A stretch of 64,000 nt of DNA from a gamma proteobacterium symbiont of Stewartia floridana (GTDB lineage Bacteria; Pseudomonadota; Gammaproteobacteria; Chromatiales; Chromatiaceae), in the NCBI GenBank assembly GCA_003676145.1, contig NAUB01000024.1, positions 310,001-374,000 of the forward strand. Reading direction: 5' to 3'. Numbering within the stretch: position 1 is the first letter of the stretch; each line of letters begins with the position of its first letter. This document shows positions 896-14,192 of this stretch, in pieces. The notes below the pieces were generated by a model. It saw only the letters and a program-made list of their open reading frames with translations. It made no database searches and was not told the origin of the DNA. Both the position numbers and the translations under genes were made by a program.

Positions 896-945
896 GTTAT
901 TTTATATATACTGGATATATATCAGTAATTGCCTAGACTTAGAGA

Positions 946-1032
946 AAGGATCAGGGTTATCCTGATTCATACAAGGCTTGCCAGCCCCTCGGGCTTCTAA
1001 CCCGAGTTCATGTTGGCGAGCCTTTCTTTTTT
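946..1032 (+). ncRNA. Structured small RNA, copy 1 of a duplicated pair
   Basis: A promoter-like pair, CTGGAT (911-916), 17 nt, TAGACT (934-939), precedes about 87 nt of structured RNA. The first hairpin pairs 948-955 with 961-968 around a 5-nt loop. The second, larger one pairs 975-983 with 1014-1022 and encloses a 6-bp stem (988-993 with 1001-1006) closing the 7-nt loop CTTCTAA (994-1000). A T-rich tract (1023-1032) follows, so the large hairpin also acts as the intrinsic terminator. The same architecture recurs at 1320-1405 with a compensatory T-A to C-G change in the inner stem, which supports a real folded RNA. The loop has the form of a tRNA anticodon loop (C, U, then UCU, A, A). Function is unknown. 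Confidence 0.6.
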
Positions 1033-1035
1033 AAA

Positions 1036-1064
1036 TTGACACTGTCCAGCTTTGTAACTAAGAT
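1036..1064 (+). promoter_or_regulatory. Near-consensus sigma-70 promoter for the middle small RNA
   Basis: TTGACA (1036-1041), a 17-nt spacer and TAAGAT (1059-1064) lie directly after the terminator of the first small RNA. The expected start point (about 1069-1071) coincides with the first base of the long hairpin described next. Confidence 0.6.
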
Positions 1065-1068
1065 TTTT

Positions 1069-1145
1069 ACAAACCTCTCGTGGACTGAACCACCTATGGC
1101 AATTGGAGCCGGACGGTCGTAGATCATGAGGGGTTTTGTCTTTTT
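1069..1145 (+). ncRNA. Small RNA formed by one long hairpin with intrinsic terminator
   Basis: The predicted transcript of about 77 nt begins where the promoter at 1036-1064 would initiate. Bases 1069-1082 pair with 1125-1139 over 14 bp with a single bulged T and two wobble pairs, and a CTTTTT tract (1140-1145) follows immediately. The internal part (1083-1124) can form a further GAC/GTC pair and a GGC/GCC hairpin. It is unrelated in sequence to its two neighbours but shares their orientation and compact promoter-hairpin-terminator design. The size is similar to the CI immunity RNA of satellite phage P4; that comparison is by analogy only. Confidence 0.55.
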
Positions 1146-1284
1146 ACAAACTGATAAAACCCTAATCTTGGCTTATAGACCTTGGTCTCTTCCTCTTTAA
1201 ACTGCTAGCTTATCAAGCCGGCATAGTCTCAATAGATCGTTAGCTACTGTTTATATTGGTTTTTTTAAATCTATCTCGTTGCAA

Positions 1285-1313
1285 TTGATTTGCACTTACC
1301 ATTTACCTAATCT
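1285..1313 (+). promoter_or_regulatory. Promoter of the third small RNA
   Basis: TTGATT (1285-1290), exactly 17 nt, and TAATCT (1308-1313) sit just upstream of the second copy of the duplicated RNA. The corresponding pair upstream of copy 1 has the same spacing and alignment, so the duplication included the promoter. Confidence 0.5.
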
Positions 1314-1319
1314 TTGGAT

Positions 1320-1405
1320 AGGAGATCAGGAAATTCCTGACCCTAAAAAGGCTCGCCAACACCCCGGGCTTCTAACCTGGGTAAAAGTTGACGAGCCTTT
1401 TTTTT
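1320..1405 (+). ncRNA. Structured small RNA, copy 2 of a duplicated pair
   Basis: This matches the RNA at 946-1032 in layout: a small hairpin (1326-1330 with 1336-1340, 5-nt loop), then an 11-position outer stem (1350-1360 with 1387-1397, one C-A mismatch), an inner 6-bp stem (1363-1368 with 1376-1381) and the identical 7-nt loop CTTCTAA (1369-1375), then eight T residues (1398-1405). The loop is invariant while stem bases differ mostly in pair-preserving ways, the signature of a functional loop. A run of A residues before the stem means the hairpin can also terminate leftward transcription from the gene at 1452-2234. Confidence 0.6.
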
Positions 1406-1451
1406 AAATAGTGCCTACTTAGATGGCCAATATGATATCGAAGCTTATTCG

Positions 1452-5800: not shown

Positions 5801-6912
5801 AGGAGCCCTGCAGGAACACCGTTCATGATATCTTTCACAAGAAAGTAGTCCATCGGGGCATTCTTTAGGTTCTCCATGAGTTGATAGATGGGCTCTTTTG
5901 ATAGCCTCTCTTTCTCCTCTTCAATGATCGGAGCCTTTTCCGTTGCCCACTCTTTCGATCTACGCTTCGTCAGTTCGGTTAGAAGCTTCTCATCGAGAGT
6001 CTGAGTTGCTTTATCCCTAGCCTTGGCCTGGCTTTTCTGATAGGTCTCCCACTCCTTGTCACTCATTCCAGCCTGTTCTTTTGACCGGAAGAATTGATCA
6101 TAGGCGGGATTGGCAAAGGCCCGTTCGATTTCCTCCTCAGTGGCTAACAGACGATCCATGTATTGACGGATCTCGTCATTGAGCTCCACATCCAGGGATC
6201 TGATACTCTGGTAAATACTGATCAACCACCGACGAAAAGCGGCAAAGGCCTCGCTGAGTTCAATCGAGGGAGCCTTACCTTCTCTCAGATAGGACTCGAA
6301 ACCACGAGCAAATTTCTCGTGGTGCTGTTTCTCGATCTGATCAAAAGATTCGATCTCAAGCCAGTTGAATAGGGCCTGTTGGTCTTCTGGTGCCCCATAG
6401 GCTTTGGACATTTTGGCCTCAGTTTCTAAAAACAGATGCCCAGCTTCGTGAAGGAATGTAGAGAGGTTGGAGTGCTCTGTGAGCTGAATTATGCTTTGCA
6501 CATCAGTGAAGGTGATTGAACCATGTTTCAAGTCACTGTTTTCATTATCGAAATCTTGATGGTACAGGTTCCCATCGTCGTCCTTTACTCCACCAATCAA
6601 ATCACCTAGACTTATTTTTGAAGCCCCTGCTGACGGCGATGGAGTACCCTCTGAAGATTCAGAGTTCTGCTGCACCGAGATACCAGCGGGGGTTTTCTTT
6701 GCTATATCAGTATCATCCGGCATCTCCATATCTAATCCGGAATTAGCTGGCTGATACGGTGTTTTGTCTGTAGCGCCTTCTTGCAACGATTTAAGGTGTA
6801 CCTCTACCGCAGCCCTCTCGCTCATTCCTGAATCAATCAACGCCTGAATAGCAGTGATATCCTGCTCATCAACACCAATATCAGAATTACGAATACAATC
6901 AGCAAAGCTCAT
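2878..6912 (-). CDS. Large polyvalent phage-type protein with HExxH metallopeptidase motif
   Basis: The product is 1344 residues from the ATG at 6912, chosen because AGGAG lies 9 nt upstream; an in-frame ATG at 6921 abuts that site. Near residue 155 it has HEAGHLFLE, a zinc-peptidase HExxH helix, followed by 'LSEAFAAFRRWL', an arrangement common in phage-encoded polyvalent proteins. The middle is long, charged and coiled-coil-like. A hydrophobic segment (VSVIAWNVGTILMQPLGLL) and a second one (DMMFLFAVEAILVGLI) near the C-terminus resemble the LPD38-type terminal domain of such proteins. Relatives are thought to be virion proteins ejected with DNA. It follows the terminase small subunit gene by 50 nt, where structural genes would be expected. 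Confidence 0.65.
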   Translation of the reverse strand: MSFADCIRNSDIGVDEQDITAIQALIDSGMSERAAVEVHLKSLQEGATDKTPYQPANSGLDMEMPDDTDIAKKTPAGISVQQNSESSEGTPSPSAGASKISLGDLIGGVKDDDGNLYHQDFDNENSDLKHGSITFTDVQSIIQLTEHSNLSTFLHEAGHLFLETEAKMSKAYGAPEDQQALFNWLEIESFDQIEKQHHEKFARGFESYLREGKAPSIELSEAFAAFRRWLISIYQSIRSLDVELNDEIRQYMDRLLATEEEIERAFANPAYDQFFRSKEQAGMSDKEWETYQKSQAKARDKATQTLDEKLLTELTKRRSKEWATEKAPIIEEEKERLSKEPIYQLMENLKNAPMDYFLVKDIMNGVPAGLLKKTKKGGVNPDEYAQAYGFATTKAMLEAILSTPSLHQAADTAAESRMIGKYGDILNDGSIEEEIRQAVHNEEQAKVLLDEIKALNKQTSAKRQIDRDYLKAHVRQIVSQMTVQELKPGKYYYAEIRAAKKAVTATDPQDQLDAKVQQIINHYLYKEVSETKAKAERIRKHLRAIQTKKYDPKQVHKDYIHYLKLLVSAYDFQRSHGEEQDAIRKLRELANWAKNQFDQEQGITVSIYDQNLIKILDADSKGLLASVSLREWSEMTIEELEGIDAMARHLRYVGGKMAEEARGEFSLKADAAGNSIRENAVKGPKQGESGTIKGKAKKAAYEYGANVLLHADSVLRRLDGYKDGLMYQLIKRPIDDAITQNLMPAEEKAGEEMDEIYHRYYKDSEMRKMNKQEDFEGLSLSKWERISLVLNYGNKSSREAVHDSVLDGVKPYSEDMMTKVIDSLDKKDMDFIQDVWDNIEQYKPELFALERRQNGVAPPSVEPMPLLTKHGIYKGGYYPLMYDRKASLKIQESEYNEMSKAMTAGRSAHAHTKDGMTKERVGSGGNPVRLDMMVWHQHVHDVLRRIHLTEAVNQAQSIIASSAVRNAAVETGNQELITALDVWIKDTAAGELMPGDILSRVLRGIRSGFSVSVIAWNVGTILMQPLGLLQTMPVIGYRNTLKGLMALSAHPVKVIKEVQSISPFMHNRGKTFNKDIHDTLRTLHGDPNKPSFIPPVVRKSYFAGIVFVQRYVDTITWLGAYEGAKQNSDKQEDLIHAADRAVARSQASGVWSDRTPIERGSLSPTIRQAEFVKIWTALGSYFFAKGNVAMELFGKTDFRNPTEIARYVTDMMFLFAVEAILVGLIRGEWPDGDDDDESKAAYIAKEVGLSVLGAFPLFREIGSEINGFRGGSTAATFYEAIGNAATQIGQGELDVALVKSINKLGGIAFKYPSSATNRAFDSLVKDIEGEDVELMDYLMYREKD

Positions 6913-11909: not shown

Positions 11910-12068
11910 ATAGCAATCCTTCCAGTGCCACCTTCGCAATTAACAACCAAGCCAGAGCGGCGAAGGTTTCCGCCTTTTCGGGAGCTACCCTAGACTCGGT
12001 TTACTCGACAATGCATCAACCCTGTTTTGTTAAATTATTCATCTCAGTTGCATAGGTGGCAGGAATAG

Positions 12069-13292
12069 TCATCCTGCTGATTTGATATGCACAATATTCC
12101 CAGAATTTATATCAGCAATCCTTAAAATTTCACTTTCTATCCGTTTAGATGCTTTAGCCAGTCTCTCAGGAGTTTGCACTACATACCCGGCGGTAACATC
12201 AGTAGTCACCTTATGATTAACAAGCGCCTTAATGGTGTAAACTGAAAGATCCAGACTCTCAGCTATCGAAATATAGGTTCGGCGTAGGTCATGGGGGGAG
12301 AAAGTGGTTTTCGACGCTTCCCGGACTATTGCTATACTTTTCCGGGGATCGGAGAGGTACCCTGTCCTACCTGCCTTTGCCGGGAATACCCACCCTCCTC
12401 GCTTCCGCCCCTTCCTCTCCAATAGACGGACTGCTACGAATTCGGGTAGAGGCAGATCCACCACTTCACGGTTTTTCGTATCAGTGAGGCGGAATGTCTT
12501 AGCCTGAAAGTTGATATCCTGCCATTCGAGACTTGCTGCCTCCTCCCGTCTTGCCCCTGTGAACAGCAAAAACAGGAAATAATCTCTTGAGACCTCATTT
12601 TTCAGCCCATTAACCGCTTTGAACCAGGCCGGGAATACATCTCTTGAGAGGATGCGTTTTTTCCGGGGTATCTTGTAACGGGTCTTTGTCTCCTTGATGA
12701 TATCCACAGGATTTCGGGGAAATAGGGTAGCTCCATCATTATCCCGATATTTTGCCTGAGCATATCGGAAAACAGCCGCGAGTACTCGTGCAGCATTGTC
12801 AGTACGCGCCTTGCTGGTCTTACCCCTCTCCTGATAGCGGATTTGTACCATACGGTCAGTAATGGAGGATAGAGGTTTATCCATCCAAGCATCAAATGTT
12901 TCTTTGAATGCCCGCCGGTAGTCCTTCACTGTCCCCGGTTTCAGATCCCTATCTGCTAAATAGGATTCAAAAACCTCTCGCAGCGTGACAGAGAGTGATT
13001 TCTTCACACGCCTTTTCTCGACAGGATCGATACTGTCTGCCACCTCGGAGAGTATTTTTTGTGCTTTTTTCCTGGCTTTCTCTATCGTCATTTCAGGGAA
13101 AGTCCCATTTTTCAGGGCAATACGCTTGGTCATGCCGCTAACCGTGGTCCGGACATGGAAAGATTTGGTTCCTTTCGGAGTAATGGTCAAGCCAAGACGA
13201 AGAACTTTGGTATCGAGGTAGTAGGTGCGCTTGTTCTCGGGGATCGGTAGTCCCTCTAGTGATTTCTTTGTGAAATTAAGCTTTTCCACCAT
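12069..13292 (-). CDS. int: Tyrosine integrase (DUF4102 arm-binding type)
   Basis: The product is 407 residues. Residues 1-90 form the arm-type DNA-binding domain typical of integrases that enter tRNA genes (YYLDTKVLRLGLTITPKGTK). The core-binding domain covers about 105-190. The catalytic domain shows Arg in 'FTGARREEA', the HxxR box in 'SPHDLRRTYIS', the second His in 'LVNHK' and the nucleophile Tyr in 'TDVTAGYV'. It would insert and excise the element at the tRNA-Ile2 3' end lying 177 bp from its start codon. The reading frame is intact, so the element may still be mobile. It is transcribed away from the attachment site, as in P4-type elements. Confidence 0.9.
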   Translation of the reverse strand: MVEKLNFTKKSLEGLPIPENKRTYYLDTKVLRLGLTITPKGTKSFHVRTTVSGMTKRIALKNGTFPEMTIEKARKKAQKILSEVADSIDPVEKRRVKKSLSVTLREVFESYLADRDLKPGTVKDYRRAFKETFDAWMDKPLSSITDRMVQIRYQERGKTSKARTDNAARVLAAVFRYAQAKYRDNDGATLFPRNPVDIIKETKTRYKIPRKKRILSRDVFPAWFKAVNGLKNEVSRDYFLFLLFTGARREEAASLEWQDINFQAKTFRLTDTKNREVVDLPLPEFVAVRLLERKGRKRGGWVFPAKAGRTGYLSDPRKSIAIVREASKTTFSPHDLRRTYISIAESLDLSVYTIKALVNHKVTTDVTAGYVVQTPERLAKASKRIESEILRIADINSGNIVHIKSAG

Positions 13293-13468: not shown

Positions 13469-13516
13469 GGACTCATAATCCCTTGGTCCTAGGTTCGAGT
13501 CCTAGTGGGCCCACCA
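13469..13516 (+). other. Attachment site: 3' half of tRNA-Ile2(CAT)
   Basis: The 48 bp hold the tRNA anticodon loop CTCATAA (13472-13478), variable loop, T arm with TTCGAGT and acceptor strand TGGGCCC followed by ACCA. The 5' half (acceptor, D arm) is absent upstream, so this is not a functional tRNA gene. The sequence matches the layout of the tRNA-Ile that reads AUA (CAT anticodon, modified to lysidine). Integrases of this type recombine within tRNA 3' ends and leave one intact gene and one 3' fragment as direct repeats. The intact gene should lie beyond the left edge, with the element between. Confidence 0.75.
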
Positions 13517-14192
13517 ATAGAATCAGGGTGCTTACCGGGCACATAGGTAACACTTTATTCCGAGGACATAGGTAACAGTTTTGGAGCAAATGGGTTATGA
13601 CCCACAGGCTCTAATCGATTTACCTCTTTGTCAACAAACCCAAAATATTTTTTTAATTATTTAGTTGATCACTACACCATCCAGCCTGATGAGCTATTAG
13701 TGTGCCGCGAGAGAGAATCTTTTATCGTGACCATTGACGTACTCACCGCACCGATAGCCGCAACTAGCAGCTCTCTTCCTTATATCATTAAAGACTACCA
13801 GACTATTTTTGGGACGATTCTGGGTACTTCGCACATCATGTGGACACTGCACATAAACAACAATAACCAGCAGGAACTACAGTGAGAGCAAAAGGAGCAC
13901 GACTTAAAGATCCAGTGACCTTCCTTATGACTATCCTCCAAAATATCCATTTCACCATTGGTGCGACTTTATGAAAATAGATGATGAGACAACAGGCAAC
14001 CAACTTTATTGATAGTTTTACTTGTGTTTTTATTTATAGAGCAAAGCCGACAATAGTTTACTCATCATTATTTTTAACGCCCCCACCCATAACAGGCAGG
14101 GGCATTAACAGTCTGGATAGTAGTTATTAAGAAGTGATTTTGATTTTTCCAATCGGAATTTATATCATGTCTGTGCCATAATCAAATCAAAA
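13517..14192. other. Gene-free stretch right of the attachment scar
   Basis: Apart from the IS-end relic noted separately, I see no supportable gene in these 676 bp. An open frame at 13628-13885 lacks a ribosome-binding site and family likeness. A loose inverted repeat (TTAACGCCCC with GGGGCATTAA, near 14078-14113) has no T tract. The region looks like eroded accessory DNA. Confidence 0.4.
13537..13580. mobile_element. Relic of an insertion-sequence end
   Basis: ACATAGGTAACA occurs twice in direct orientation (13541-13552 and 13566-13577), 25 bp apart, within the wider motifs GGGCACATAGGTAACA and GAGGACATAGGTAACA. Tandem short repeats of this kind are transposase-binding sites at IS ends, and ACATAGGTAAC-type ends are familiar to me from IS481-like elements. 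No transposase gene is left. It sits directly beside the tRNA scar, a common insertion hotspot. Confidence 0.35.

Follow-up and report, generated by a model that had tools for sequence, protein, structure and literature searches.

Compact candidate small-RNA genes in a tRNA-Met-integrated element and the probable kinship of their A type with hairpins nested antisense after the LPD3 domain of phage proteins

Introduction

What do three compact tandem units do at the edge of the cargo of an integrated element? In a stretch of 64,000 nt from a gammaproteobacterial symbiont of Stewartia floridana (hereafter the window), the three rightward units A1, B and A2 follow each other in this order within 515 bp of the + strand (896–1410). 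Re-reading of the sequence confirmed the description given by a first-pass annotation; as re-read, each unit consists of a promoter-like pair (16–17 nt spacing), a structured RNA of about 76–87 nt and a U-rich end. The annotation took the units for small-RNA genes of a regulatory or immunity locus, by analogy with the CI RNA of phage P4, or for a set of decoy or antitoxin RNAs.

We consider P4 CI RNA together with the C4 antisense RNA of phages P1 and P7 (Rfam RF01695) and its Acinetobacter relatives. C4 is a compact and structured RNA of about 77 nt which is processed by RNase P from a longer transcript and acts by its loops in phage immunity, and numerous phage-derived C4-like copies in A. 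baumannii are suggested to target incoming phage (PMC5320573). A further precedent is STnc6030 of the Salmonella prophage BTP1, which is antisense to late phage genes and in trans gives superinfection exclusion (PMC7067206). We herein explore the anatomy, the relatives and the possible function of the A1-B-A2 block.

Results

Anatomy of the block and promoter evidence

The positions of all features are collected in Table 1. The product of the ribbon-helix-helix (RHH) gene in front of A1 matches Pfam RHH_5 with an E value of 4.5e-5, a match that falls short of the curated cut-off of this family. The 5' ends of the A1, B and A2 RNAs were placed from the position of the -10 element. The predicted long hairpin of A1 comprises an outer stem of 13 pairs, a 2-nt spacer, an inner stem of 6 pairs, the loop CUUCUAA, a 5-nt spacer and the U-tract, and A2 takes the same form with a single mismatch in the outer stem. 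Fold z-scores are -6.2 for A1 and -5.6 for A2, and for B -2.5 on an 87-nt stretch and -1.0 on a 112-nt stretch. A1 and A2 share 76% identity over 82 nt, and sequence comparison within the block found no repeat linking B to either, in agreement with the view of the outer units as diverged copies and of the middle one as unrelated.

Table 1. Features of the block, of its carrier element and of the match to a kinase-like gene end, in window coordinates unless a locus is named
Feature	Position	Strand	Remark
RHH gene, 49 aa	746..895	+	directly 5' of A1
A1 promoter-like pair CTGGAT-17-TAGACT	911..939	+	-35 911-916, -10 934-939; kept in position in G002
A1 RNA	946..1032 (approx.)	+	5' hairpin 948-968; U-tract 1025-1032
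A1 long hairpin	973..1024	+	outer stem 973-985/1012-1024; inner stem 988-993/1001-1006; loop CUUCUAA 994-1000
B promoter-like pair TTGACA-17-TAAGAT	1036..1064	+	-35 1036-1041, -10 1059-1064
B RNA	1071..1146 (approx.)	+	single long interrupted hairpin 1071-1136, then U-rich tail
A2 promoter-like pair TTGATT-17-TAATCT	1285..1313	+	-35 1285-1290, -10 1308-1313; kept in A1 of G010
A2 RNA	1320..1406 (approx.)	+	5' hairpin, then long hairpin, then U-tract
A2 long hairpin	1348..1399	+	outer stem 1348-1360/1387-1399; inner stem 1363-1368/1376-1381; loop 1369-1375
B core / kinase-end match	1093-1121; L033 1501-1528; L031 1501-1529	antisense	
Polyvalent protein gene, 1347 aa	2878..6921	-	phrog_9880; no LPD3 domain
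Possible further unit	6584..6703	+	antisense, within the N-terminal region of the polyvalent gene above
int-alpA RNA (RF02996)	11931-12000	-	Rfam match
Integrase gene	12069-13292		of the element
Right 49-bp repeat	13469..13517	.	copy of tRNA-Met end
Left 49-bp repeat	L022 5471-5519 = window -12529 to -12481		end of tRNA-Met(CAT) gene
SIR2-like gene	L022 8701-9789	+	left part of element
PDC-S64 candidate defence gene	L022 15945-16904	-	left part of element

A simple consensus scan flagged only B among the three promoters of the block, and its terminator rule flagged, within the block, the inner hairpin of A1 alone. Promoters were additionally scored with approximate sigma-70 weights, where 500 shuffles set a floor of p = 0.002. 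Taken alone, the A1 and A2 promoters score no better than shuffles (p = 0.63 and p = 0.29), and for A1 the scorer favoured TGGATA at 16 nt as an alternative -35. Support for the A promoters comes from their place, since the distance from the -10 to the 5' hairpin is a constant 9–10 nt in all five full A copies (two near-identical pairs included) and the best pair sits there, with weak single scores (p 0.05–0.63). The A copies of two relatives, G001 and G003, lack a pair at the promoter position. In all five B copies TTGACA and the 17-nt spacing are kept while the spacers have diverged, and the -10 ends 8–12 nt before the hairpin. Each B promoter beats its shuffles (p 0.002–0.024; window B 0.002), giving a Fisher p of about 1e-8 that is uncorrected for relatedness among the copies; the copy of G016 has a poor -10, CAGAAT.

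The carrier element

The block is situated at the margin of the cargo of an element of about 26 kb, integrated at tRNA-Met (window coordinates -12529 to 13517) and bounded on both sides by a 49-bp direct repeat of the end of the tRNA-Met(CAT) gene. With P4-like satellites the element shares a tRNA-end repeat next to the integrase, an int-alpA RNA and a primase-like gene, whose product has DUF3987 and Toprim domains. It also encodes a Terminase_2 small subunit and the phrog_9880 polyvalent protein. From this gene content, we consider the element satellite- or prophage-like, a reduced prophage and a P4-like satellite being equally possible. The first-pass description of the block, with the RHH gene, as the only rightward part of the visible element holds inside the window; to the left of the window the element has other rightward genes such as the SIR2-like one.

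Relatives in the genus and family

Among 22 genomes of the genus, taken to be Candidatus Thiodiazotropha, we found seven copies of A in five genomes (two each in G000, the host genome of the window, and G010, one each in G002, G001 and G003) and five copies of B in four (two in G010, one each in G000, G002 and G016). Read in the direction of the window, the order is RHH-A-B-A in the host genome, RHH-A-B in G002 and B-A-B-A in G010, where the units point away from an excisionase-like gene (phrog_66); G016 has B alone, G001 and G003 have A alone. The A copy of G001 lies near an internal-virion-protein gene (phrog_342), and the neighbours in G003 are similar by eye. A degraded A in G019 (L059, about 1501–1561) has a flank that by eye resembles that of the G003 copy. 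The elements of G002, G010 and G016 have primase, terminase, polyvalent and small genes in common with the element of the window (the polyvalent gene of G010 being a remnant), and in each of them the RNA units have the polyvalent gene on one side and the cluster of small genes on the other.

At E ≤ 0.01, an A model (R1) had matches in 27 of the 210 genomes of the family, with 76–87 bits for the seven copies alone and at most 36 bits for the remaining 25 rows. Seven of these weak rows were inspected, and one of the other 18 is the reverse strand of A2. Five (L047, L048, L049, L052 and L053) turned out to be ordinary short terminators, L071 is neither an A unit nor an ordinary terminator, and L059 is the degraded A of G019. 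The B model (R2) matched four of the 210 genomes, the same four that carry B. A third model, R3, gave three candidate matches outside the host genome among 398 genomes. A strict A pattern matched only the host genome among 369 genomes of the class, finding A2 and missing A1.

The A hairpin outside the genus

Pattern scans retrieved the A core from the phage contigs L035, L036, L105 and L106, the last two being identical over the stretch compared, and, in a remnant-like form, from a Castellaniella MAG (L073). A2 shares an exact 26 nt with L035 and an exact 24 nt with L036. The phage units lie antisense inside genes for polyvalent or portal proteins of uncultivated phages, in or near the peptide stretch DPDxLxEKRKAP-LPRxEARGxEP. 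In L036, L105, L106 and the second site of L035 they follow an LPD3 domain (PF18798; a Pfam hit in L035 and L036, a reading of the sequence in L105/L106), while the first, closer copy of L035 lies elsewhere in the same gene, where Pfam gives no LPD3 hit. Antisense promoter-like pairs precede the hairpin in L105 (TTGACA-17-TATATT), at the first site of L035 (TTGATA-17-TATACT) and in L036 (TTGAGG-17-TATACT), each with p = 0.002, the floor of 500 shuffles; at the second site of L035 and in L073 they are not significant (p 0.22 and 0.12).

Eleven A-type hairpins, A1 and A2 included, follow one plan, in which spacers of 2 nt on the 5' side and 5 nt on the 3' side set an outer stem apart from the inner stem with its loop, and a U-tract comes last. 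Their outer stems vary widely in sequence and yet keep their pairing almost fully, with 17–19 of 19 pairs in the seven host copies and all 16 or 17 in the four phage or MAG copies. The loop CUUCUAA is constant in them except for CUUCUAC in the second copy of L035, and CUUCUAC is also found in L105, which stands outside the count of eleven. As a check of its proposal, the first-pass annotation had asked whether other genomes conserve the stems through compensatory changes; the stems of A passed it, whereas in B a two-sided change is seen in one of 24 pairs only. The blocks thus go beyond chance, since related ones recur in the genus, pairing survives sequence change and five B promoters beat shuffles. 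By this comparison A and B are very probably real small-RNA genes, and their assignment to an integrated element, made before, is well supported.

Seven further matches (L037–L041, L072 and L076) were rejected as chance matches of the pattern. Two IMG/VR pattern scans for B in viruses brought up nothing beyond one chance match (L078), and BLAST of the block and of the L105 unit against phage and plasmid collections gave no match. An antisense peptide KRKA..LPRLEARGxEP can be excluded as a real feature of the window; stops close the antisense frame of both A1 and A2, so that peptide coding is not the function of A there.

Antisense terminators at LPD3 loci in general

A survey of polyvalent proteins counts LPD3 among forty domains of elusive function (PMC5512222). 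A strict antisense-terminator rule, applied within 150 nt after the LPD3 end, is satisfied at eight of 12 loci, where the hairpin starts 18–39 nt after the domain end. Without L035 and L036, both found through the A pattern, ten loci from protein search alone remain, six of which have an antisense terminator against 0.27 expected from a background of 0.027 per 150 nt and locus (6 hits across 33,442 nt of these loci), a comparison to be read with the rule having been written after the hairpins of L079 and L081 were seen by eye, and the 150-nt zone having been chosen later. Two of the five loci fetched after the rule (L094, L095, L096, L098 and L099) have a terminator under it and three have bulged forms. 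The six positive loci are L079, L081, L082, L084, L095 and L099, all phage or plasmid genes, with L081 qualifying only through an 8-pair stem and a 68-nt loop; L083 shows no hairpin after LPD3. By eye, the ten loci represent about five lineages (L079; L081, L094, L095, L096 and L098; L082 and L099; L083; L084). Left out were the duplicates L093 (plasmid length and place as in L081), L097 (linker as in L096) and L080/L092 (the contig of L036), the fragment L100, the pair L105/L106, found later through the A pattern, and L085/L086. The latter, from G468, has two weak tandem LPD3 hits in one gene, and only one of them is followed by an antisense terminator.

L084, which does not have the sequence of A, displays an A-like plan with a longer loop and the antisense pair TTGACA-17-TACGGT (p = 0.002). 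The plan of L095 is similar to that of A, as is that of L079 with a larger insert, and the antisense promoter of L079 is not significant (p 0.09). In the Pseudomonas-type LPD3 loci a promoter-like pair overlaps the conserved peptide DxNITI, and these pairs should not be taken as independent. The host genome has no LPD3 gene and one of the 22 genus genomes, G020, has one; it belongs to the phrog_9880 family and carries an antisense hairpin of other sequence with an unconvincing promoter (p 0.09).

The A copies of the window are intergenic and not antisense after LPD3. We call them free-standing relatives on account of sequence likeness (26 nt identical to L035), not of position. Kinship of A with the LPD3-nested units, in a direction that may have led either out of or into the LPD3 genes, is highly probable from the shared sequence, and A is probably such a nested antisense RNA gene in stand-alone form.

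Discussion

We propose a model in which A1, B and A2 would be autonomous small-RNA genes ("RNA morons") in the cargo of a tRNA-integrated element, A being a free-standing copy of the antisense RNA gene nested in the post-LPD3 linker of other phages and B a second RNA of the same design. The mRNA opposite would carry the complementary hairpin, with the loop UUAGAAG facing CUUCUAA, so that A could pair loop to loop first and then extend to a duplex of about 25 nt, which would block or destabilise the transcript of the virion-type LPD3 protein. From the island, this copy would work in trans against LPD3 phages that enter the cell or are induced, leading to superinfection exclusion or satellite interference. 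Transcription, pairing in cells and exclusion are what we infer, and we give the model as a whole a probability of roughly 0.4; on this reading the regulatory or immunity locus of the first-pass annotation is plausible and preferred, but by a different route than the one suggested, with A matching antisense RNA nested in phage LPD3 genes.

For A, this model builds on its anatomy, its recurrence, its conserved structure, its kinship with LPD3-nested units and the long stretches over which it is complementary to LPD3-type genes of phages. For A2 paired with the mRNA of L035 (first site), L036 and L105, predicted duplexes reach -81 to -87 kcal/mol, compared to -39 to -43 for shuffles, values that follow from homology and indicate how extensive such pairing would be, complementarity alone being no demonstration of targeting. 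Precedents for antisense exclusion are STnc6030 (PMC7067206) and, as a suggestion, the C4-like RNAs (PMC5320573), and for this reason we favour it. Against the model we count that A pairs with the LPD3 linker of G020 no better than shuffles (20 of 200 as good for A1, 62 of 200 for A2); for B the result is borderline, with 5 of 200 as good and three RNAs tested, and the longest exact complement of the units to the contig end of G020 is 9–11 nt. We further count that A1 and B, but not A2, slightly exceed their five shuffles on the element's own polyvalent mRNA, that the A-complementary phages L035, L036 and L105/L106 are known here as viral contigs alone, with no known infection of Thiodiazotropha, and that these phages encode the A RNA themselves. 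The lack of an LPD3 gene in the host genome, the A1 and A2 promoters that are weak alone, the A copies of G001 and G003 with no pair at that position, the locus L083 with no hairpin and the non-significant promoters of L035 (second site), L073 and L079 count against it as well.

Four alternatives rank below antisense exclusion in our order, namely protein decoy, mobile palindrome, host-gene regulation and mere terminators. The foremost of them, though unlikely, is that A is a decoy or antitoxin-like RNA whose CUUCUAA hairpin is bound by a protein, be it the LPD3 domain, for which we know of no RNA binding, or some other protein, injected or of the host; the cognate RNA would then be nested antisense in LPD3 genes, and the satellite copies would be sponges or antidotes. 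A loop that is near-invariant while the stems vary, the place of the hairpin just past the LPD3 domain end in the eight loci with a strict hit, and two A copies per locus, which would suit titration, are consistent with a decoy, as is the fact that some polyvalent proteins combine LPD3 with PBECR domains, which are predicted RNases; the same survey, however, describes LPD domains as being of elusive function (PMC5512222). The loops moreover differ in L079, L084 and the Pseudomonas-type loci, so that the protein would have to co-vary, and a decoy would act in a host genome that does not have an LPD3 gene. Less probable again is that A and B are mobile palindromic DNA units which spread between mobile elements, even in frame, with promoter and terminator as passengers. 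Small hairpin elements that insert in frame inside genes exist in the Rickettsia palindromic elements, and the contexts of A do differ, since it sits between genes in satellites, next to a gene in regions that are prophage-like and in frame inside phage genes, with two A in one gene of L035 and the remnant-like copy of the Castellaniella MAG. The few copies per genome (two A in the host), the B spacers that diverge while -35 and spacing stay, and the antisense frame of A1 and A2, in which stops leave no coding to hold the hairpin, argue the other way.

Lower still we place trans base-pairing regulators of host or element genes, unrelated to phage exclusion, of which B might pair with the end of a histidine-kinase-like mRNA. 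In the host genome, the B core matches antisense the end of a gene that is histidine-kinase-like by eye (89% over 28 nt, E 0.001), and the same kind of match occurs in G008 (90% over 29 nt, E 0.0003); yet such a match at E ≤ 0.05 is found in only two of the 22 genus genomes, G008 has no B, and the matched peptide motif is common in kinases. Within the element, no conserved complement of A (at least 10 nt) or B (at least 11 nt) was found, and the three complements of 10–11 nt beyond the units themselves are not conserved in relatives, which speaks against regulation of element genes and leaves P4-CI-like action on the own element unsupported. Least probable of all is that the units are only strong terminators or insulators, shielding the cargo and ending the RHH mRNA, with idle RNAs. 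The position of the block at the cargo edge, with A1 directly after the RHH gene, would suit this function; against it stand the invariant loop, the asymmetric internal loop, the 5' hairpin and the own promoter, none of which a terminator requires.

Returning to antisense exclusion, a wider form of it would be that a hidden class of antisense small-RNA genes with promoter and terminator is nested after LPD3 across diverse phages, that satellites and prophages have lifted them out as tandem immunity RNAs, and that A1-B-A2 is such an array. We regard this extension as tentative and rather doubtful. The putative unit inside the element's own polyvalent gene would be a further nested member; it consists of TTTACT (6584–6589), 17 nt, TAGACT (6607–6612), a hairpin (6621–6695) and a U-rich tail to 6703, and this hairpin is absent from the polyvalent genes of G016 and G002, the latter having a different, weaker one. 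New here is the A hairpin in uncultivated phages, antisense in the post-LPD3 linker of polyvalent or portal proteins. If the model is true, a nested antisense RNA gene beside LPD3 in unrelated phages would offer a handle on the control of large, presumably virion-packaged proteins, and its free-standing counterparts in satellites would let phages and satellites, or phages among themselves, compete by RNA only, a route through which the island may silence rival phages. Among the papers listed by searches of the open-access literature none deals with this arrangement, which is weak evidence of novelty, and the polyvalent-protein paper contains neither of the terms antisense and noncoding RNA (PMC5512222).

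Among known systems, compared by description, STnc6030 resembles the proposed A in lying antisense opposite late phage genes and in protecting in trans from that phage, but differs in being long (annotated 786 nt, with shorter bands) and not a compact hairpin with free-standing copies (PMC7067206). The IIR transcript of PLE satellites is, like the units, a satellite non-coding RNA, abundant and with antisense homology to gene leaders, but it lies between inverted repeats and its proposed partners are leaders of the PLE's own genes (PMC7567579). The prophage sRNAs AgvB and AsxR are likewise small RNAs of phages with trans effects on other RNAs; their described targets, however, are the host sRNAs GcvB and FnrS, and the excerpt at hand describes no link to polyvalent genes (PMC12197685). 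Compared to C4, each unit comes with a promoter-like pair and a terminator of its own, folds differently and gives no C4 match, and the presence of such pairs and terminators argues against C4-type processing of the units by RNase P.

Rfam has no family that covers A or B. The whole window matches int-alpA alone at the gathering threshold, a non-coding RNA of the same element but of a different family and place, outside the block. At E ≤ 5, a search of 600–2000 gave nothing inside 896–1410, no C4 and five weak matches elsewhere in that range; together with the lack of a conserved complementary site in the element, this leaves the P4 CI analogy unsupported as family membership. Seven loci with LPD3 or A-like units gave no match at the gathering threshold. 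The family sRNA-Xcc1 (RF02221) is absent from the window and was present, among five stretches searched, beside the block of G010 alone, where its match (L024 7854–7937) adjoins the B-A-B-A array.
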